Shown here: piece by piece, positions 1,271 to 59,627 of the stretch | Position numbering within the stretch: position 1 is the first letter of the stretch | Layout: every line of letters starts with the position of its first letter | From: an archaeon | GTDB taxonomy: Archaea > Thermoproteota > Nitrososphaeria > Nitrososphaerales > Gagatemarchaeaceae | Assembly (NCBI GenBank): GCA_021827865.1 | Contig: JAKAUC010000009.1 | Coordinates: 1-64,000, forward strand | DNA length: 64,000 bases | Direction of reading: 5' to 3' | The notes under the pieces: generated by a model | What the model was told of the DNA's origin: nothing | Databases searched by the model: none | The model's input: the letters and a program-made list of their open reading frames with translations, nothing else | Translations under genes and position numbers: made by a program

Positions 1271-2578
1271 ATGGCTTACATCGTCCTCGTCCTCGCCGCG
1301 TTCCTGTTCATCGCCCTGGTCTCGGTCCTGATCGCAAGAAAGATCAGGACCCCATACACCACCCTCCTCGTCCTGATGGGGCTCGCCCTGGCGGCGATAC
1401 CCGTGGCGGGGCTGGCCGGGCTGACTGGTTTCTTCGCGAACCTCGCCAACGAGCAGCTGTTCGTCGGGCTGGTCCTCCCCCCGATACTCTTCGAGAGCGT
1501 CATGAGCATCAAGGCCTCGGACTTCCGCGCCGTCTACAGGCAGGCCTTCGTCATGGCCACGGTCGGGGTGCTGATCTCGACGCTGGTGGTGGGGGTGGTC
1601 CTCTGGAAGGTGGTCGGGTTCTCCCCGCTGGTGTCCTTCCTCTTCGCGGCCCTCATCTCCCCCACCGACGTGGCCACGGTCCTCGAGATCTTCGCCCGGG
1701 TGAACGTGCCGTCCAGGCTCGCCACCCTCGTGGAGATGGAGTCGGTCTTCAACGACCCCACGGGGATCGCGATCTTCACCGTGGTCCTGACCTCCTCGGC
1801 GGCGGCCACCCTACAGCCCGTCACCGCCATAGCCACCTTCACCTACATCCTCACCGGGGGGATCCTCGTAGGGCTGGGGGTAGCCTGGGGGGCGCGCTGG
1901 GTGCAGTCCATGGTCTCCGACGCCGTCACCCAGGTGGTCCTGACCCTGGTGGCGGTCTACGGGTCCTTCGCCGTGGCTTCGGCCATAGGCGCGTCGGGGC
2001 TGATAGCGGTCGCGGTCACGGGGCTCTTCTACGGGAACACCGTCCTCCTGAACATAGACAGCAAGAAGGTGGGGGAGATGACCAGGGAGTTCTGGAGCAT
2101 AATCGCGTTCGTGGCCAACGCCGCGGCGTTCTTCTTCATCGGGGTCAGCACCAACATCTTCCTGCTGGCGACGGGGCTGGGGGCCCTGCTGGTCGCCTAC
2201 GGCGTGGTGGTCATGGCCAGGATAACGTCGGTCTACCCGATCATGAGCATCATGAAGGCGGAAGGGCGCGAGACCCCTTCGTCCTGGATGAACGTCTCGA
2301 CGCTGGGGGGGATGAGGGGCGCCCTGGCCATAGCCCTGGTCTCCGCCATCCCGCTGGCGGCAAGGCAGCCGGTGGCGACCCTCACTTTCGGGGTGGTGAT
2401 GCTGAGCATCCTCCTGCAGGGGCCCCTCCTGGGGCGCTACGCCAACAGAGTCTTCGGCCACCAGGAGACGCTGAAGCCAGACGCCCCCGAGAAGGCCACC
2501 CCCGCCCCGGAGGGGGCTCCTCCGTCCGCGGAGGCTTTATCACAGAAGCGCGAAAGGCCGGACCCCGATGAGCTTTGA
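1271..2578 (+). CDS. Na+/H+ antiporter, CPA1/NhaP type
   Basis: Integral membrane antiporter exchanging monovalent cations for protons. The 435-residue protein has about 12 hydrophobic helices up to residue 395, followed by a charged proline-rich cytoplasmic tail. CPA1 signatures are visible: FVGLVLPPILFESVMSI in the early helices, the FLFAALISPTDVATV segment with the ion-coordinating Thr-Asp, and VFNDPTGIAIF with the second acidic pair (Asn-Asp). The 3' end overlaps the start of glyS by 11 bp, so the two are probably co-transcribed. Confidence 0.9.
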   Translation: MAYIVLVLAAFLFIALVSVLIARKIRTPYTTLLVLMGLALAAIPVAGLAGLTGFFANLANEQLFVGLVLPPILFESVMSIKASDFRAVYRQAFVMATVGVLISTLVVGVVLWKVVGFSPLVSFLFAALISPTDVATVLEIFARVNVPSRLATLVEMESVFNDPTGIAIFTVVLTSSAAATLQPVTAIATFTYILTGGILVGLGVAWGARWVQSMVSDAVTQVVLTLVAVYGSFAVASAIGASGLIAVAVTGLFYGNTVLLNIDSKKVGEMTREFWSIIAFVANAAAFFFIGVSTNIFLLATGLGALLVAYGVVVMARITSVYPIMSIMKAEGRETPSSWMNVSTLGGMRGALAIALVSAIPLAARQPVATLTFGVVMLSILLQGPLLGRYANRVFGHQETLKPDAPEKATPAPEGAPPSAEALSQKRERPDPDEL

Positions 2579-4046
2579 CGAGATAGTCAGGCTGGGCCAG
2601 CAGAGGGGCTTCTTCTTCAAGACGGCCGAGAGCTATCCCAACACCCCGGCCGGGTTCCTCGACTACGGGCCCCAGGGGGTCTCGCTGAAGAACAGGCTCG
2701 TCGAGCTATGGAGGCGGGTGGTGGTCAGGAGGGACGGCATGCTCGAGATCGACGGCGCGCAGATCCTCCCCAGGGCGGTCTTCGAGGCCTCGGGGCACCT
2801 GTCGAGCTTCACCGACCCGTTCGTGAAGTGCGCGAAGTGCGGCTCGGTCTTCAGGCCGGACAAGCTGGTCGAGGAGAAGACGGGGAAGGGGGTCGCTGAG
2901 AAGCTCAGCGACGCCGACTACGACCAGCTGATGGAGAGGTCAGGGGTGAAGTGCCTGAAGTGCGGCTCCAGGCTGGCGGGGACCACCAGGTTCAACATGA
3001 TGTTCAAGCTGGGGATAGGGCCCTCCCAGGAGGAGGCGTACCTGAGGCCTGAGACCTGCCAGAGCATATTCGTGGACTTCCCTCTGCTGTTCAAGACCCA
3101 GAGGGCCAAGCTCCCGGTGGGGATCGCCCAGGTGGGGCGGAGCTTCAGGAACGAGATCGCCCCCAGGCAGGCGCTCATCAGGCTCAGGGAGCTCAACCAG
3201 GCAGAGGTGGAGGTCTTCTTCAACCCGAACAAGGCCGACGACAAGCGCTTCGACGGGGCGCTGGAGAGGGCCCTGGCGTTCAGGCTCCCCGACGGGACCG
3301 ACGCCAAGCTGACCGTGGCCGAGGCGAAGGGGAGGGGGTTGGTCCCCAACAAGCTCGCCGGGCACTACCTCGCCCTCATCGCAGGGTTCTACGAGGACGC
3401 CGGGATCCGCCCGGAGGACATCAGGTTCAGGGTCCTGGCCGAGGAGGACAGGGCGTTCTACTCGAGGGCAGCCTTCGACCTCGAGGTGAAGCTCTCCTGG
3501 GGGTGGGTCGAGCTGGTCGCATGCAACTACAGGGGGGACTACGACCTGGGAGGGCACGCGAGGGTGAGCGGGAGCAACTTCACCGTCGACGACGAAGGGG
3601 AGAAGGTCCTCCCCCACGTCTTCGAGCTGTCGCTTGGGATCGACAGGAGCGTCTTCGCCGTGATGGAGTCGTCCATGCAGGGGGAGGGGGAGAGGAGGGT
3701 GATGGCGCTGCGGCCGTACCTGTCCCCGACCCAGGTCTGCGTCTTCCCGCTGGTGAACAAGGACGGGCTCCAGGAAGCAGCGAGGGGGGTCTTCGAGGAG
3801 CTCAGGGAGTCCTTCGAGGCGTTCTACGACGAGTCGGGGGGGATAGGGAGGAGGTACGCCAGGGCGGACGAGGCCGGGGTCCCCGCCTGCGTCACCCTGG
3901 ACTACGACTCGCTGAAGGACGGGACGGTCACACTCAGGGACAGGGACACCAGGGCCCAGGAGAGGGTCTCGGTGGCCGCCCTCAAGGAAAGGCTCGCCTC
4001 GCTGACGAGGCTCCCCCCTATAGGGAAGAGAGCGCCAGGAAGATAG
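2568..4046 (+). CDS. glyS: Glycyl-tRNA synthetase, archaeal/eukaryotic dimer type
   Basis: Attaches glycine to tRNA-Gly. This is a class II synthetase of 492 aa, on the short side for archaeal GlyRS. It opens with the family N-terminus (GFFFKTAESY, GFLDYGPQGV). Two Cys pairs, CAKC near residue 94 and CLKC near residue 130, form a likely zinc site. Motif 2 is RSFRNEIAPRQ and motif 3 lies near ELSLGIDRSVFAV. The C-terminal anticodon-binding domain follows (about 380-480). It is coupled to the upstream antiporter gene and overlaps the convergent DUF92 gene by 29 bp. Confidence 0.95.
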   Translation: MSFDEIVRLGQQRGFFFKTAESYPNTPAGFLDYGPQGVSLKNRLVELWRRVVVRRDGMLEIDGAQILPRAVFEASGHLSSFTDPFVKCAKCGSVFRPDKLVEEKTGKGVAEKLSDADYDQLMERSGVKCLKCGSRLAGTTRFNMMFKLGIGPSQEEAYLRPETCQSIFVDFPLLFKTQRAKLPVGIAQVGRSFRNEIAPRQALIRLRELNQAEVEVFFNPNKADDKRFDGALERALAFRLPDGTDAKLTVAEAKGRGLVPNKLAGHYLALIAGFYEDAGIRPEDIRFRVLAEEDRAFYSRAAFDLEVKLSWGWVELVACNYRGDYDLGGHARVSGSNFTVDDEGEKVLPHVFELSLGIDRSVFAVMESSMQGEGERRVMALRPYLSPTQVCVFPLVNKDGLQEAARGVFEELRESFEAFYDESGGIGRRYARADEAGVPACVTLDYDSLKDGTVTLRDRDTRAQERVSVAALKERLASLTRLPPIGKRAPGR

Positions 4047-4830
4047 CCAGGGCGGCGGCGGCCCCGGCCACGGTTGAAATCACGTTCACCACGTTGTTCT
4101 CCACGTAGGGGGAGCCCCGGGTGGCCCTGGTCCTCTCCCCGCAGTGCTTCAGGGCTTCGGTGGGCTTCAGGCAGACGACGCAGTACCCCTTCCTCTGGAC
4201 CGCGGCTCCCACCAGGCTGTCGACCACGGCCCCGAAGAGGCCCCCGGCGAGGCAGGCGGGGATGACGAGGTACGGGTCGCGGAGTATCCCAAGCGACAGG
4301 GCGATGACACCTATGACCAACGACGCCACCGCTGCCCCTCCGAACCCGAGGGGGGAGACACCCCCGGAGGTCCCCGGGGCCACGGTCCTCGACGGGTTGG
4401 TGATCAGCCTCGGCTGGGAGTGGCTGAGGAGCCCCAGCTCCGTGGCCGCGGTGTCGGCCGCCGACGCGGCTACGGCGCCCAGGAACATGGCCGCCAGGGG
4501 CTGGCCAGGGTGGAGGAGGTTCCAGACCGCCAGGATCGACCCGAGCCCCCCGTTGGCCAGTATGTGGGGCCAGTTGCGGGCTCCCCCCTTCCCCTGGGCG
4601 CCCCCCAGGCGCCTCTTGTACCCGTACTTGTAGAGGGTGAAGCCTACCCCTAGGACGAAGAAGACCGCGACGATGAAGAACCACCTGAGCCCCCCGCCGT
4701 AGATCACCGCGAACCCCACCGCGGCGCTGGCGAGGAAGCCCCTGGAGTCGATGGCCCTCACGAGGACTGCGGTCAGGGCGACGGCGAGGACCAGGAAGAA
4801 CTCGGCCACCACCTCCACGACAGCGAACAA
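4018..4830 (-). CDS. DUF92 / TMEM19-like integral membrane protein
   Basis: A 270-residue membrane protein with about 6-7 hydrophobic helices. It matches the DUF92 family, which includes plant phytyl-phosphate kinase VTE6 and human TMEM19, through RAIDSRGFLASAAVG at the N-terminus, ASAADTAATELG in the middle (conserved D/E-rich helix), PGTSGGVSPLG, and a C-terminal KHCGERT region ending VENNVVNVIST. Two Cys in YCVVCLKPTE are also typical of the family. By analogy it may phosphorylate an isoprenoid alcohol phosphate, but the archaeal function is unproven. It converges on glyS with a 29-bp overlap. Confidence 0.85.
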   Translation of the reverse strand: MFAVVEVVAEFFLVLAVALTAVLVRAIDSRGFLASAAVGFAVIYGGGLRWFFIVAVFFVLGVGFTLYKYGYKRRLGGAQGKGGARNWPHILANGGLGSILAVWNLLHPGQPLAAMFLGAVAASAADTAATELGLLSHSQPRLITNPSRTVAPGTSGGVSPLGFGGAAVASLVIGVIALSLGILRDPYLVIPACLAGGLFGAVVDSLVGAAVQRKGYCVVCLKPTEALKHCGERTRATRGSPYVENNVVNVISTVAGAAAALAIFLALSSL

Positions 4831-49192: not shown

Positions 49193-49324
49193 CGCAGGTG
49201 CGCGCCGGCCAGTCCCAGCGTATTAATCAGTTTGCGGCGGGGCGGGTCCCTTCCGGCCAACTGAATTAATTAAGAGAATCTTTCACTGAGCATCTCTCCG
49301 AAGAGGGTCCTCGGGGAGAGCAGT

Positions 49325-49585
49325 TCAGTATATCGTGTGCGGGCCACACCTCAGGAACACCACGACCCTTTCAAGAGGATCGACGGAATAGAGAACCCTG
49401 ATTGCACGCCCGACGTCGTAGCCATAGGCTCCCTTCCACTTGCCATACTTGGGCCTTCCAAGAGCAGCCGGGTTGCCCGAGTTCAGAATGCCGCTGATGG
49501 CTTCGTTCACCCTCTGCTGGTCTTGGCGACCGAGGCTCTTGTGGTCTCTTCTGAAGGTCGGAGTGTATGCAGAGGACCACGGCAA
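49325..49585 (-). CDS. relE: RelE/ParE-type toxin
   Basis: An 86-residue toxin of the RelE superfamily. It has the short basic alpha/beta fold: YTPTFRRDHKSLGRQDQQRV (helices), SGNPAALGRPKYGKWKGAYG, YDVGRAIRVLYSVD (beta core with Arg), and RVVVFLRCGPHTIY at the C-terminus. It would cleave mRNA on the ribosome. It follows a small acidic antitoxin gene by 6 bp in an accessory region. Confidence 0.82.
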   Translation of the reverse strand: MPWSSAYTPTFRRDHKSLGRQDQQRVNEAISGILNSGNPAALGRPKYGKWKGAYGYDVGRAIRVLYSVDPLERVVVFLRCGPHTIY

Positions 49586-49591
49586 GGTTGC

Positions 49592-49831
49592 TCAGCGGAT
49601 CTCTAGGTCTCGTATCATCTGCTTTGCGTTCTTGAATCGCTTGATTCTTCCCTCTTTCATTTCTTTGATTGCCAGGTCAGTCCTCTCACGGTAGTCTGAG
49701 TCGAAGATCTCCCAGGTCTGCTCTCTGATTTCCTCGTCGGTGGCGCCTTTCTCCACTCCATCCCTGAGCATGGCTACCAGGTGTTCTACAGTCTCCTTAT
49801 CGACTAGGTACCTCTGCTCCGCCCTTACCAT
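49592..49831 (-). CDS. Antitoxin partner of the RelE-type toxin
   Basis: A 79-residue acidic helical protein (DKETVEHLVAMLRDGVEKGA, EEIREQTWEIFDSDYRERTD, RIKRFKNAKQMIRDLEIR). The size, charge, position upstream of the toxin and 6-bp gap identify it as the antitoxin; no specific DNA-binding fold is evident. Likely autorepresses with the toxin. Confidence 0.72.
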   Translation of the reverse strand: MVRAEQRYLVDKETVEHLVAMLRDGVEKGATDEEIREQTWEIFDSDYRERTDLAIKEMKEGRIKRFKNAKQMIRDLEIR

Positions 49832-49849
49832 TCTAATTGATATTCACCG

Positions 49850-50985
49850 CCAGAGGTAGATAAAGCGATTGGGCAAACCCCGTCTCTCGTCGGAGGCTCG
49901 CCTGCACCAGCCGACTCCCTCCAGGCTCGGCCATCGCTCCGGAGCAAATTCACCCCCCGCGATGCCTACCGAATGCACCGCTCGCCTGCCGGCTCGCTTC
50001 GCTCCCCCCTCTTTGCCCCTCCGCTCGTCCTTCGCCTTCACCCCGCCTCGAAGCGGGGCCCTCGCTCACGTTGTTCGCTCGGGGGGTGTCGGCTGGTGCA
50101 GGCTCGCAAGTGAGGGGGGAGAATTGAGCTCCAATCGGGAAATGGAGGAGAGAGGAAGGAGCATACCCTCTGAAGGAGGAAAGTGCCGGTCTATTCCGAC
50201 ACGCCGCATATCCGGCGAATGGGGGAGGCGAGTGGTCCGAAATCACCTGACGTCTTCCCTCGCTGTTCGACAGGACAGTGTATGGGCGGTGTCATATTGC
50301 ACGTGCGGTCGCCGGGATTTCCGTCCGCGCTTATCTTCGTTCTATTGTCGTATTCAACCATGTGTACAGGTAGATGAACCACTGATGAGAGGGGTCAATC
50401 CTCTTAGGAGTTACGCGGTTGAGCCGAGACGGTATAAGGAACGTAAGAAGCTACAAGATAGATAGCAAGACGTTACTCGATTCGATGGATTTCCTGCAAG
50501 GTTTGTCATCTCGCATTCCAGCCGCGTAACTCCTACAATAGTAGAAAGTGGGTTGATTGGTAGCCGCCCACCCCACGATGTCGAATCCTTCAGAATCGGC
50601 GCGCGGCGAGAAAGATCGAGAAGGTAGGTGGGCCGTTTACGTCTCCAGGGCGAATAACCGAACGTGGTGAGTGTGGCTCTGAGTTCCAGGGCGCTACCTC
50701 GGCAGGGACAAGTAGATTGATGACAAAGCTGATGATAAGGACCGCGCTCGCGTTCAAGACAACGGAAGGTGTCGTAGGATCTCGAAGTTCCGCGAACCGT
50801 TCCAATTTTTCCGGGACAGTCAAGTCGCAAGACTTTCCATCTAGGGAGACACGAGTAGGGAGTACGGATTCAGGCCAGGAGGCGTTGTGAGCTACCTGGT
50901 TCATAATGTGGTTCCATACATGCCGTTCAGGTTTAGCAGGAATCAGACAGCGATACTCACAGTCACCTGTCGTCGGCTAAGACCA
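49850..50985. other. Accessory intergenic region, no convincing gene
   Basis: About 1.1 kb with ORFs in several frames but none with protein-like features; a 104-residue frame on the minus strand (50590-50904) has one hydrophobic stretch and low support. The 5' half is GC-rich and carries a long inverted repeat (49900-50103); the 3' half is less GC-rich. It could hold an RNA or element remnant. Confidence 0.4.
49900..50103. repeat. 16-bp inverted repeat spanning ~200 bp
   Basis: GCCTGCACCAGCCGAC at 49900-49915 and its exact reverse complement at 50088-50103. An inner hairpin CCCCGC-ctcgaa-GCGGGG lies at 50041-50058. Possible MITE-like remnant or structured RNA. Confidence 0.55.
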
Positions 50986-50987
50986 AC

Positions 50988-51206
50988 TCAGCATGGGAAG
51001 TAGTAAGTCGACGCTTCAATGCAAGCACCGAAACCTACCAACACTTTGGTTGCTGAAGCGTAGTACGAACCATGCCCGCCCAGTGCACAGGAAAAGCCAC
51101 ACCCACTTGGTGCGGCTGCCGGAACATACGCAATTGGGGCAAAGACCGCCAGCACCAATATTGCGAAAGCCGCTCCTGGAATCACGATGCTGATTGAATA
51201 CCTCGT
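50988..51206 (-). CDS. Small exported protein, Cys-containing
   Basis: About 72 residues with the ACG at 51206 as start (79 with the TTG at 51227). A hydrophobic segment (VIPGAAFAILVLAVFAPIAY) could be a signal peptide, and the mature part has four Cys (SGCGFSCALGG, GFGACIEAS, FPC). The TATA-like CTTAAC (51229-51234) is only ~5 bp from the TTG but ~26 bp from the ACG, which favours the shorter form. Function unknown. Confidence 0.4.
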   Translation of the reverse strand, partial: TRYSISIVIPGAAFAILVLAVFAPIAYVPAAAPSGCGFSCALGGHGSYYASATKVLVGFGACIEASTYYFPC

Positions 51207-51278
51207 GCTCTCATCACTTCGGTGCAATCTTAACTTCGGGTGCGAAGGGTGTCACCTGGGGAACGAGGTTTCGAGATG

Positions 51279-52553
51279 TCATGGATATGATGACGAGAGC
51301 CAGCTATCACTCCAAGTACTGCCGTGCGCCCCATTGCTCGGGGTTGTGCTTGAGACCAATTCCGTTGTAAGTCCTGTGTTGTACAAGTTCAGTTTCCAAG
51401 TGTTCGAACCGGAGTTCAAAGCGACCTTGTTGCCATAGTTGTTAATAGCCCCCCAGAAGTTTTGGGTACCAAACTCTGGGTTTTGGGCCAGATGCCCTCC
51501 TGATAGACCGGGCCTTTCTTCGAGGAATTGCACGTATTGATTGTCAGGGAAACATTCGCCTGAACTCGTATACTGGCCAGTGGCTCGGTTTGTTATCTTC
51601 AATTCTACCACCCAGTCAGCCCCCCCGCTGACCCCACCTGCGGGAGAGCAGTTGGCTGTGGGCTGAACCCACTCCATCGTAACAGCGTCACCGGAAGTCC
51701 AATCGCCTACGTTCGGAGTCGTTGTCAAAAGCGTTGTACCATCTAGCGCATATTGGAAGAAGACGCAGTTTGATGCATAGGAATTCGATCCGCAGTTTGA
51801 CGGTTCGGCTTGGTTGCCTCCCCAGTAGGCTAGTATGACCTGGAAGAAGAATGGGTCACTAGGAAGACTACTACTCAGCCAGTTGTAATTACTCGTCCCT
51901 AACCAATTCCCCCAATCCCAGCAATAGCTACCACAACTGGAAGGACTGGCCAGGTCGGAGAAGACCGTTGTGTTATACTCGGCCCCGTCCATTGGGTAAC
52001 TTCCACCAGAATTGGAATCTTGCGCTTGATGTCCTGCCGCAAGATCGTTGTTAGCTGTGGATCCCCCATATGAAACAGAGTTGTTCTGTGAAGCGAAAGT
52101 GTATATCGACTCTACAACCTTCAGACTCCCTTCAGACGCCCATACGCCGATAACAGTGCCGTTTGGAAGAATGTATTGGTAAACCCCGTACACTGTGTTG
52201 TTGTCTGCAAAGCCTACAGTTGTCTGAGCGTAATCGTAAGGATTCCCTTGTGAGGACCATAGACTGAGGTACGGCCTGAGCTGGTCCTTAGCGATATCAT
52301 GCGAAGTCAGCCACACGGATAAAGCTGGCAATGCAAGGATTGTAGAGGACGCAGCTTCAGACTGGAATGGATACGAGCTGTTCAACCAGAGTTCTCCTCC
52401 CACCAAAGTGCTTGCGGAAGAGGACAGAGTTACTTGTGACCCGCCGCTCGCAGAAATTGGCTGAACCAAGTTCAAGCCCGTTATCATGGAGGTGAGACCG
52501 AGCAGCCCAAGGACAAGAAGGGAAACAAACCGCCCACGAGTTGCACATGACAT
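51279..52553 (-). CDS. Large secreted protein of unknown function
   Basis: A 424-residue exported protein. Signal peptide at about residues 8-36 (FVSLLVLGLLGLTSMITG, then an ISASGG cleavage region). The mature protein is rich in Ser, Asn, Gly, Trp and Tyr, with several sequons (NNT, NGT, NNS, NTT) and Cys pairs (SCGSYCWDWGNW, CGSNSYASNC). Long beta strands suggest a jelly-roll fold, and a glutamic-peptidase-like or lectin-like role is conceivable but not demonstrated. Divergent from the membrane-bound regulator at 52645 across a perfect palindrome. Confidence 0.75.
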   Translation of the reverse strand: MSCATRGRFVSLLVLGLLGLTSMITGLNLVQPISASGGSQVTLSSSASTLVGGELWLNSSYPFQSEAASSTILALPALSVWLTSHDIAKDQLRPYLSLWSSQGNPYDYAQTTVGFADNNTVYGVYQYILPNGTVIGVWASEGSLKVVESIYTFASQNNSVSYGGSTANNDLAAGHQAQDSNSGGSYPMDGAEYNTTVFSDLASPSSCGSYCWDWGNWLGTSNYNWLSSSLPSDPFFFQVILAYWGGNQAEPSNCGSNSYASNCVFFQYALDGTTLLTTTPNVGDWTSGDAVTMEWVQPTANCSPAGGVSGGADWVVELKITNRATGQYTSSGECFPDNQYVQFLEERPGLSGGHLAQNPEFGTQNFWGAINNYGNKVALNSGSNTWKLNLYNTGLTTELVSSTTPSNGAHGSTWSDSWLSSSYP

Positions 52554-52581
52554 TTGATGGTTACCGCGTTAATTGAGGGGC

Positions 52582-52588
52582 AATATCT
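52582..52588 (-). promoter_or_regulatory. TATA box for the secreted-protein gene
   Basis: AGATATT on the minus strand, about 30 bp before the ATG at 52553. Confidence 0.45.
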
Positions 52589-52590
52589 GA

Positions 52591-52614
52591 TTTTGTCGGA
52601 ATGTTCCGACAAAA
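52591..52614. promoter_or_regulatory. 24-bp perfect palindrome between divergent promoters
   Basis: TTTTGTCGGAA-TG-TTCCGACAAAA: 11-bp perfect arms around a TG spacer. It lies between the minus-strand TATA (52582-52588) and the plus-strand TATA (52613-52620), so a bound dimer would block both. It has the same spacer and position as the palindrome at 8865-8880. Confidence 0.75.
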
Positions 52615-52620
52615 ACTTAA
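52613..52620 (+). promoter_or_regulatory. TATA box for the membrane-bound regulator
   Basis: AAAACTTAAC region centred about 27-28 bp before the ATG at 52645; leaderless spacing. It abuts the palindrome. Confidence 0.55.
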
Positions 52621-52644
52621 CTGTTTGTACCGCTACAACACGTT

Positions 52645-53226
52645 ATGTCTATTCGTTCCGTCCGTCTCTTACTTTATCTTATGGTTACCTTCTCGGTTCT
52701 CACTACCGTCACTGCCCTATTTTCACTACTTGCGCCTCTGGGCGTTTCAATTCCACCGTGCACAGGAAGTGGGATCTGCTACGTCATGGAATCACCTGGA
52801 CTTGGATTGCTTCAGATGTTTGTGAAACAGAGCCCTGTCCTGGCTTCAGGAGGGTGGGGGCTGGTCGTCATCACGTCACTCTGGTACCAACGAACGACTT
52901 CGACCTGGAGGAAGATGGGCTTCGACTCCGACGTCTTTCAGCTTCTGATGCGGACGAAAGGGGGCCCGACAAGGGTCCGCCTGCTCCGGTCCCTGACGAC
53001 GTCGAAGAACAGGTTGGAACTCTCCCGGGAGCTCGGCTACGACTGGAATGTGATAGACCGGCACATCAAAATCCTCCTCAAGCACGGGATGATAGAAGAA
53101 GACACAGCCTATGGGAACGTAAAGCTGTACCAGCTTACTGGCGCAGGAAAGAAATTGATGAGCCTAATAGAAGAACTCCAAGGAGCAGACGCGCACTCTG
53201 TACCACCTACCGAAGGCAAGACCTAG
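52645..53226 (+). CDS. Membrane-anchored winged-helix regulator (2 TM then HTH)
   Basis: A 193-residue transcription factor tethered to the membrane by its N-terminus. Two hydrophobic helices (about 8-30, and 65-82 around LASGGWGLVVITSLW) flank a short loop with two Cys (PPCTGSGICYV), then a winged-helix domain at about 95-180: RVRLLRSLTTSKNRLELSRE, GYDWNVIDRHIKILLKHGMI (recognition helix) and wing YGNVKLYQLT. Domain order is the reverse of the 8926 protein. It probably regulates the divergent secreted-protein gene and itself. Confidence 0.8.
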   Translation: MSIRSVRLLLYLMVTFSVLTTVTALFSLLAPLGVSIPPCTGSGICYVMESPGLGLLQMFVKQSPVLASGGWGLVVITSLWYQRTTSTWRKMGFDSDVFQLLMRTKGGPTRVRLLRSLTTSKNRLELSRELGYDWNVIDRHIKILLKHGMIEEDTAYGNVKLYQLTGAGKKLMSLIEELQGADAHSVPPTEGKT

Positions 53227-53583
53227 AGACATTCTGGTACCATTCGACAGCATGGGAGAGTGCAGCTGCCCGGCGAGTCGGTCGGTCGGACGTCCCAGAA
53301 CTACCCGTCTACCTGCGTATCCTGTGGGCGTTCTCGAGTTAGCCGTATTTTGGACGTTAATCTCAACACATCACGACGTTCTCGGATGCCATCGTGTATC
53401 CACCCACATTCCGCGTTAATCAGAACGCATCAAACTTCGGAGATAAGGATTCGCTCAAGAAATTAGTTGCATCCCTTCCGACTCCCCAGGGCCGGGTCGC
53501 CAGGCTTCAAGGGGCAAAGCCCGTCGGGGTCTGGCGGATAGCTTCAACTGGGGGCCCCGGCCACGCCCCGCCACGAGACCATA
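53227..53583. other. Intergenic region, 357 bp
   Basis: No gene recognised. CGTTAATC and CGTTAATCAG near 53352 and 53413 are AT-rich promoter-like elements. The GC content rises after about 53470, marking the end of the accessory island. Confidence 0.35.
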
Positions 53584-59175: not shown

Positions 59176-59412
59176 ATGAGATTCAGTTGCATCGACGACG
59201 AGTTGTGGGGGTTCATCGAGCCTCTCCTCCCTCCTCTTGCAAGCGAGGGGAGGCCTAGGGCCGACGACAGGAGGACCATCAACGCAATCCTCTACATCCT
59301 CAAGACAGGGATACCCTGGGACGACCTCCCCGAGGAGTACGGGGACGACGTCACAGCCTGGAGGAGGCTCAAGGAGTGGGAGGAGAAGGGGGTCTGGACC
59401 AGGCGTTCCTAG
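59176..59412 (+). pseudogene. Truncated IS5-family transposase (N-terminal part)
   Basis: 78 codons homologous to the start of the transposase at 60456: CIDDELWGFIEPLLPPLASE, GRPRADDRRTINAILYILKT and DDLPEEYGDDVTAWRRLKEW. Similarity stops at about 59398 and the frame ends after WTRRS. The DDE domain and right end are missing. The nucleotide sequence differs from the full copy at many positions, so this is an older or separate copy. Confidence 0.82.
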
Positions 59413-59420
59413 TGGGGAAC

Positions 59421-59627
59421 ATGAAACAGACAATCCCCATGCTTGAGGAGTCGACCGGCCTGAGCTTCAAGACCGTCCAGAAGGTCCTCCAGAGACTCTC
59501 TGGAAAGGGGTTCGTGGCCCCTGGAGGGAAGATTGGGAACGCCCAGGCCTACCAGTTCAGGCTCGAGAAGGAGCTACGCGAGTTGATCGAATGGGCGACG
59601 AAGTACCAGTTCACTGGGGCTGACTAG
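59421..59627 (+). pseudogene. HTH regulator fragment next to the IS remnant
   Basis: 69 residues from the ATG at 59421: TIPMLEESTGLSFKTVQKVL and QRLSGKGFVAPGGKIGNAQA form a winged-helix with wing, then a short charged helix RLEKELRELIEWATKYQ. Upstream codons (DQAFLVGN) continue in frame into the IS remnant, suggesting the N-terminus was removed by the insertion. It may still be translated as a small DNA-binding protein. Confidence 0.5.

Follow-up and report, generated by a model that had tools for sequence, protein, structure and literature searches.

Two genes diverge from a perfect palindrome in this 64,000-nucleotide stretch of archaeal DNA (the window), and the arrangement raises the question of which protein reads the palindrome and which promoters that protein controls. 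The gene on the minus strand (51279-52553) encodes, by its open reading frame and translation, a 424-aa protein with a hydrophobic N-terminus; it is predicted to be exported, a status assigned from hydropathy both here and for the corresponding partners in relatives. The product of the plus-strand gene (52645-53226) is a 193-aa, predicted membrane-anchored winged-helix protein, hereafter the regulator. A preliminary description of this DNA had placed a large exported protein divergent from a winged-helix protein and a 24-bp palindrome with 11-bp arms and a TG spacer between them. Both reading frames are as it gave them, and the palindrome, which reads TTTTGTCGGAA-TG-TTCCGACAAAA and belongs to neither strand, is exact over all 24 bp at 52591-52614. 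Its centre lies about 43 and about 50 nt from the two start codons, and we consider it the candidate operator.

Palindrome in the window and in the genome

Only one perfect palindrome with arms of 11 bp or more and a spacer of at most 8 is present in the 64-kb window, the one at 52591-52614, and six of the same class arose in 20 mononucleotide-shuffled windows (about 0.3 each), so that a palindrome of this kind in 64 kb is by itself not rare. Within the 112-nt stretch between the two hydrophobic N-termini, none of 200 shuffles reached the observed palindrome. As its size is unremarkable in shuffled windows, the argument for an operator has to be made from its place and from comparison with relatives. 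No second copy with up to three mismatches was found in the window, nor any in 100 shuffles of it. The exact operator core occurs at one site in the whole 1.94-Mb assembly (G000, contig C13), and allowing two mismatches gives 31 matches, against 58 for a mirrored control. A global regulon was rejected on this basis, the exact core occurring once in this assembly and the looser matches not exceeding the mirrored control. An RNA hairpin or terminator was also rejected as the main reading, given that the palindrome lies between divergent start codons and adjoins a TATA element in relatives.

The regulator and its family

The AF2 model of the regulator (pLDDT 83) has long N-terminal helices at residues 3-32 and 53-90 followed by a winged helix, with residues 134-146 as the modelled recognition helix. 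Its Pfam-type match is to HTH_20 (E 5e-5, under the curated cut-off), and Foldseek matches the domain to MarR, ArsR and AspA winged helices. Of the two transmembrane segments initially assigned to the protein, the first is borne out by a clear hydrophobic helix, which exceeds 1.45 in 30 of 33 homologs, whereas the second is only moderately hydrophobic in the window (mean Kyte-Doolittle 1.19) and among the same 33 exceeds 1.45 in 9 and 1.0 in 27. With two membrane crossings, the N-terminus and the DNA-binding domain would both lie on the inner side.

A 19-row profile searched against 46 genomes of the same family as the source (E ≤1e-10) found the regulator family in 25 of them, with 42 matches and a gap in E value between 1.3e-26 and 6.8e-13. 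Regions were fetched for 33 of the 34 family matches at E ≤1.3e-26, leaving out a stop-containing fragment in G402:C212 and all 8 weaker matches, and for five matches from other families of the class, 38 in total. The non-redundant set comprises 35 of these, after removal of L091 and L122, which are the window's locus (10546 and 10545 of 10546 bases identical to it), and of L128, a near copy of L127; covariation counts additionally exclude L109, a near copy of L111. In a class relative (L126 in G001, regulator ORF 2499-4130), a large insert separates the two hydrophobic helices and is possibly an extracellular sensor domain.

Exported genes beside the regulator

Because the codon-usage gene caller misses the exported gene, exported partners were sought among raw ORFs with a hydrophobic N-terminus; the same caller also misses the N-terminal part of the regulator. 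An automatic rule, which asks for an opposite-strand ORF whose N-terminal hydrophobic stretch starts 40-330 nt upstream, found a partner for 26 of 35 regulators and for 18 of 167 control genes, namely the remaining gene calls of these regions and of the window (Fisher P 7e-14, over loci that are not fully independent); at L092 it took a smaller ORF than the nearest one. Inspection added L105 and L113, in which a DUF4349-type exported partner lies farther away and escapes the rule owing to Ns or to a hydrophobic part that went undetected, bringing the divergent exported gene to 28 of the 35 non-redundant loci.

The partners themselves differ in family. Apart from the window's own family, separate ones are formed by the partners at L101, L104, L105, L110 and L113, at L095, L100, L102 and L112, at L092 and L093, at L109 and L111, and at L127 and L128, and the rest are singletons. 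When 20 further proteins, mostly exported partners, were scanned with Pfam, the one from L110 alone passed a curated cut-off (DUF4349 and PKD), and the L099 and L100 partners gave C1q matches under the cut-off. Seven regulators are without a divergent exported partner, and L106 is the one close, complete relative among them: L114 and L117 are without the helix motif, L118 and L119 without the hydrophobic part, and L121 and L126 are outliers. Eleven further loci of the wider class were viewed with short flanks: one of them (L028) has a dyad that matches at 6 or more of 7 positions, and of the ten among them read for neighbours, four (L009, L015, L024, L028) have a divergent exported ORF, as judged by eye.

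The next ORF downstream of the exported gene (50988-51227, minus) encodes a 79-aa protein that combines a hydrophobic segment with a tail containing Cys, and it may belong to the operon as a third gene. Small proteins like it occur near the regulator copies at L096, L097, L102, L118 and L120 (two at the last), according to a pattern built after seeing examples, and by eye also near L092 and L093.

Conservation of the operator

At the level of the family the operator takes the form TTTGTCGGA-N4-TCCGACAAA. The preliminary description had proposed searching relatives for such divergent pairs and aligning their intergenic palindromes, and this comparison bears it out: of the 28 pairs at 35 loci, 27 have a dyad with a 4-bp centre (27 of all 35 regulator loci), matching at 4-7 of 7 positions where random offsets average 1.8. 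The dyad stands at one fixed distance from the regulator TATA; of the 26 aligned rows, 23 carry T at D4 and 22 carry T at D6. The remaining paired locus, L112, has one half-site only. At the seven unpaired loci the best site reaches 0-4 of 7 and no TATA-linked dyad is present; L118 attains its 4 of 7 at a site that scores like background, and L106 has a half-site only. The contrast in dyads between paired and unpaired loci is a weak one, L106 being the only close, complete relative on the unpaired side.

Examined one by one, only 12 of the 32 non-redundant intergenic regions contain a palindrome that exceeds those of their shuffles (P ≤0.05). The two half-sites change together within loci: with sites placed by eye, 155 of 182 positions match between halves, against 116 in shuffles (P 5e-5). 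A leave-one-clade-out model that uses only the right half and the TATA recovers 24 of the 26 hand-placed sites, and the covariation of the two halves persists with sites placed blind in this way: 145 of 182 positions match, against 112 in shuffles (P 5e-5, the lowest value that 20,000 shuffles can give). The halves match more within than between loci, and thus the dyad is kept while its sequence changes.

A reverse search of the 46 family genomes with TTGTCSGA-N4-TCSGACAA, allowing one mismatch, returned eight sites, one in each of eight genomes, and all eight lie upstream of members of this regulator family. The mirrored control pattern gave 11 sites in the same genomes, so it is by their location that the eight support an operator. 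Orthologous loci lacking the palindrome had been named in advance as evidence against the arrangement, and one is found from the side of the exported gene: at L041 (G398/G415) an ortholog of that gene has as its neighbour an ORF judged by eye to be thiolase-like, and it lacks both an adjacent regulator and such a palindrome. Regulator-paired loci keep the dyad in 27 of 28 cases. On account of L041 the idea that the palindrome marks the exported gene was rejected: the site belongs with the regulator rather than with the exported gene itself.

Covariation between regulator residues and operator bases

Three residues that lie in helix 134-146 or just before it vary with three operator bases. Regulators with Asn135 have G at -3 in 6 of 6 half-sites, as against 0 of 46 for the others; those with Glu or Gln at 133 have C at -2 in 6 of 6 (1 of 46 for the others); and those with Tyr or Trp at 139 have T at -6 in 14 of 14 (2 of 38). 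Counted over 13 groups derived from the regulator tree, whose independence is incomplete given the many open forks of that tree, the pairs give P values of 0.013 for 135/-3, 0.013 for 133/-2 and 0.0035 for 139/-6, uncorrected and for pairs noticed before testing. In a blind scan of all columns, residue 139 comes first for -6 and residue 135 first for -3, and residue 133 is second for -2 behind residue 84. Residue 36 leads for -5, where residue 136 is third, and residue 178 leads for the four bases summed; both of these leaders lie outside the recognition helix. L108, which sits on its own long branch, has both Asn135 and GTCGGA in common with the window clade.

We take the covariation of three recognition-helix-region residues with three operator bases as strong comparative evidence that the palindrome is the binding site of the regulator, and the earlier suggestion that one regulator binds this site gains support from it as well as from the covariation of the two halves. 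Judged from these sequence comparisons, the regulator very probably binds the palindrome.

Promoter geometry and proposed model

The palindrome lies between two TATA-like elements identified from the sequence and an alignment of 26 loci: AGATATT for the exported gene (52582-52588, minus) and CTTAAC for the regulator gene (52616-52621, plus). The preliminary description had placed it between two TATA boxes, which stands, and had it overlap the plus-strand one, which does not, as CTTAAC adjoins the operator just outside the palindrome. Counted outward from the 22-bp operator core in the 26 aligned sites, the regulator-side TATA at +2 to +8 is strong (AT 0.81-1.0), and its AT-rich counterpart on the side of the exported gene, placed in mirror image, is weaker (AT 0.92, 0.31, 0.96, 1.0, 0.58 and 0.81 at +3 to +8). 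The BRE is positioned upstream of the TATA element, and an operator flanked by a TATA element on each side therefore covers the BRE position on both sides. Such cover over the BRE of both promoters favours repression; the weak TATA of the exported gene would also fit activation and leaves that reading open.

We propose the following model, at a rough probability of 0.47, for a local, dedicated and autoregulated switch that represses both genes. The regulator would be held in the membrane by its N-terminal hydrophobic helices with its DNA-binding domain inside and would bind, as a dimer and from the membrane, to the palindrome that separates the two divergent genes. There it would cover the BRE of its own strong promoter and the mirror-image BRE of the weaker exported-gene promoter, so that the bound dimer most likely limits expression of its own gene and silences the exported gene, perhaps along with the small ORF downstream of it. 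This would last until a signal, acting at the membrane or beyond it, altered the dimer. Comparison among relatives brings out the conserved gene pair, the likewise conserved putative operator at fixed geometry and its covariation with the recognition helix region; repression rather than activation, binding of a dimer from the membrane, an extracellular signal and a protease-like role for the exported protein are what we infer beyond it. That the regulator controls both promoters, by whatever sign, is probable.

The same site could also serve two opposite ends, with the regulator shutting its own strong promoter while recruiting the transcription machinery to the weak exported promoter. The strong TATA on one side and the weaker one on the other agree with such an autorepressor and activator, as does the activation of flaB by ArnR, a studied archaeal membrane regulator (PMC6396743), but the operator lies roughly as far from the TATA of the exported gene as from the other one, in mirror image, and should cover that BRE too, and we hold this reading to be possible but doubtful. 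It is unlikely that the operator serves the promoter of the regulator only, with the exported neighbour running independently: the fixed spacing between operator and regulator TATA and the ortholog of the exported gene that has neither regulator nor site beside it would fit pure autoregulation, but a divergent exported neighbour accompanies 26 of 35 regulators against 18 of 167 controls, and L106, a close and complete regulator without such a neighbour, has only a half-site. A different, soluble factor on the palindrome, with the membrane protein acting elsewhere, is compatible with a regulator-palindrome link drawn from sequence evidence but is very improbable, in that operator bases covary with the recognition helix region of the regulator, the exact site is unique in the genome and the sites of relatives adjoin this regulator family.

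The arrangement recurs in related archaea, where site and regulator vary together, and so has the look of a reusable local switch for secreted proteins. In its broader form, to which we give somewhat better than even odds, each regulator evolves together with an operator of its own, the two being insulated from other such pairs and following a readable recognition code, and these pairs have repeatedly been coupled to unrelated exported proteins in Nitrososphaerota, one switch per effector.

The exported protein

The 424-aa protein has no match of its own in Pfam (PF01828 included), NCBIfam or the PDB sequences, and a profile of the L112 family likewise finds none among the PDB sequences; a structure model from five rows reaches pLDDT 33, too low to be used. 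G1 peptidases are acid endopeptidases with a fold of two sandwiched beta-sheets. True G1 peptidases (PF01828) are present in 21 of the 46 family genomes at E ≤0.01, 20 of them over the cut-off, and none was found in G000, the window's own genome. Against a local profile of 13 G1 proteins taken from these genomes the window's exported family scores a probability of 88.9% (E 2.4e-6; 0.6% with the reversed profile), against an uncleaned G1 set 62.7%, and the window protein taken singly scores E 2.3 with the local profile. The L111 partner matches the G1 profile at 98.3%, and the L112 family does not match G1 directly (0.5%); the window family matched the L112 family at 7% at first and at 78% with cleaner rows. 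G1 peptidases have a Gln/Glu catalytic dyad (PMC3009609, PMC6154417), and in the alignment Gln238 and Glu346 occupy the catalytic columns in all four window-family rows. The profile match of the C-terminal half and the Gln and Glu at the dyad columns thus resemble the MEROPS G1 family (eqolisins), whereas the absence of a PF01828 match and of a significant single-sequence score against the local G1 profile sets the protein apart. We describe its C-terminal half as distantly G1-like, a putative and not a proven peptidase.

The exported protein has matches in 7 of 400 genomes drawn from the class, its own included. The pair is present in G000, G200 and G296 and absent in G398; G331, in which a contig end cuts the locus, and G201 and G332, with a fragment or weak match, were not judged. 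G200 and G406 carry the locus nearly base for base and are effectively one observation with the window. The near-identical locus in G200, which is listed in the same genus and not in the same species (L123 against L122, 10545 of 10546 bases over about 10.5 kb), would reflect recent transfer or shared binning. The G296 copy (L042, 3929-5256) has 72% protein identity and an exported gene split over two frames, by decay or assembly error; its regulator gene is open and its palindrome is kept with two changes.

Relation to known regulators

In its modelled fold the regulator resembles MarR and ArsR repressors and AspA, the centromere-binding protein of pNOB8, all of which were Foldseek matches. 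Repressors of the MarR type commonly act from an intergenic palindrome between divergent genes. MarR/ArsR-type repressors and AspA are soluble, whereas hydrophobic helices precede the domain of the window regulator. The window regulator also resembles the transmembrane transcription regulators (TTRs), of which ToxR-like one-component regulators are an example. TTRs are common in bacteria and archaea and are defined by a single chain that unites a membrane part with a DNA-binding domain (PMC10269533), a definition that the window regulator fits on its predicted architecture. The same source counts 1,384 archaeal membrane-bound transcription factors; its main text does not contain the words "divergent" or "genomic context", and within the part of it available to us no family-wide divergent exported partner with a covarying operator was found.

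ArnR and ArnR1 of Sulfolobus acidocaldarius are archaeal membrane-bound one-component regulators with inverted-repeat boxes, TCGAC-N5-GTCGA, in archaellum and pili promoters, and the authors call theirs, to their knowledge, the first biochemical analysis (PMC6396743). The window regulator shares with them a predicted place in the membrane and an inverted-repeat site. ArnR as laid out there has an N-terminal HTH, HAMP and sensor parts and two C-terminal TM helices (PMC6396743), whereas the window regulator has its hydrophobic helices at the N-terminus and its winged helix at the C-terminus, and its candidate target is the divergent neighbour rather than archaellum or pili promoters. Secreted peptidases are reported for another family of the phylum's non-ammonia-oxidisers (PMC10640624), where the sections at hand make no mention of G1 or of such regulators, and the open-access PMC texts covered, in part, gave no description of this module of regulator, operator and exported protein.

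Archaeal membrane-bound transcription factors are numerous and little studied. Here sequence alone gives the family, the putative operator, the promoter geometry and three residue-to-base rules, from which binding and specificity swaps become predictable, and the module would offer a handle on the control of secreted proteins in uncultured Nitrososphaerota.

Genomic surroundings

Across 49250-53300 the GC content is about 0.49-0.61, as against 0.62-0.69 in the flanks, and together with the missed gene calls this possibly marks an acquired segment. A ParE/RelE-like toxin ORF lies near the module (49325-49831, minus; PHROG RelE-like E 1e-8, ParE-like E 1e-5, the latter under the cut-off), with a small ORF upstream of it as a possible antitoxin. 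At 59176-59627 on the plus strand, an IS4/5-type transposase remnant (DUF4096) overlaps a small winged-helix-like ORF (matches under the cut-offs).
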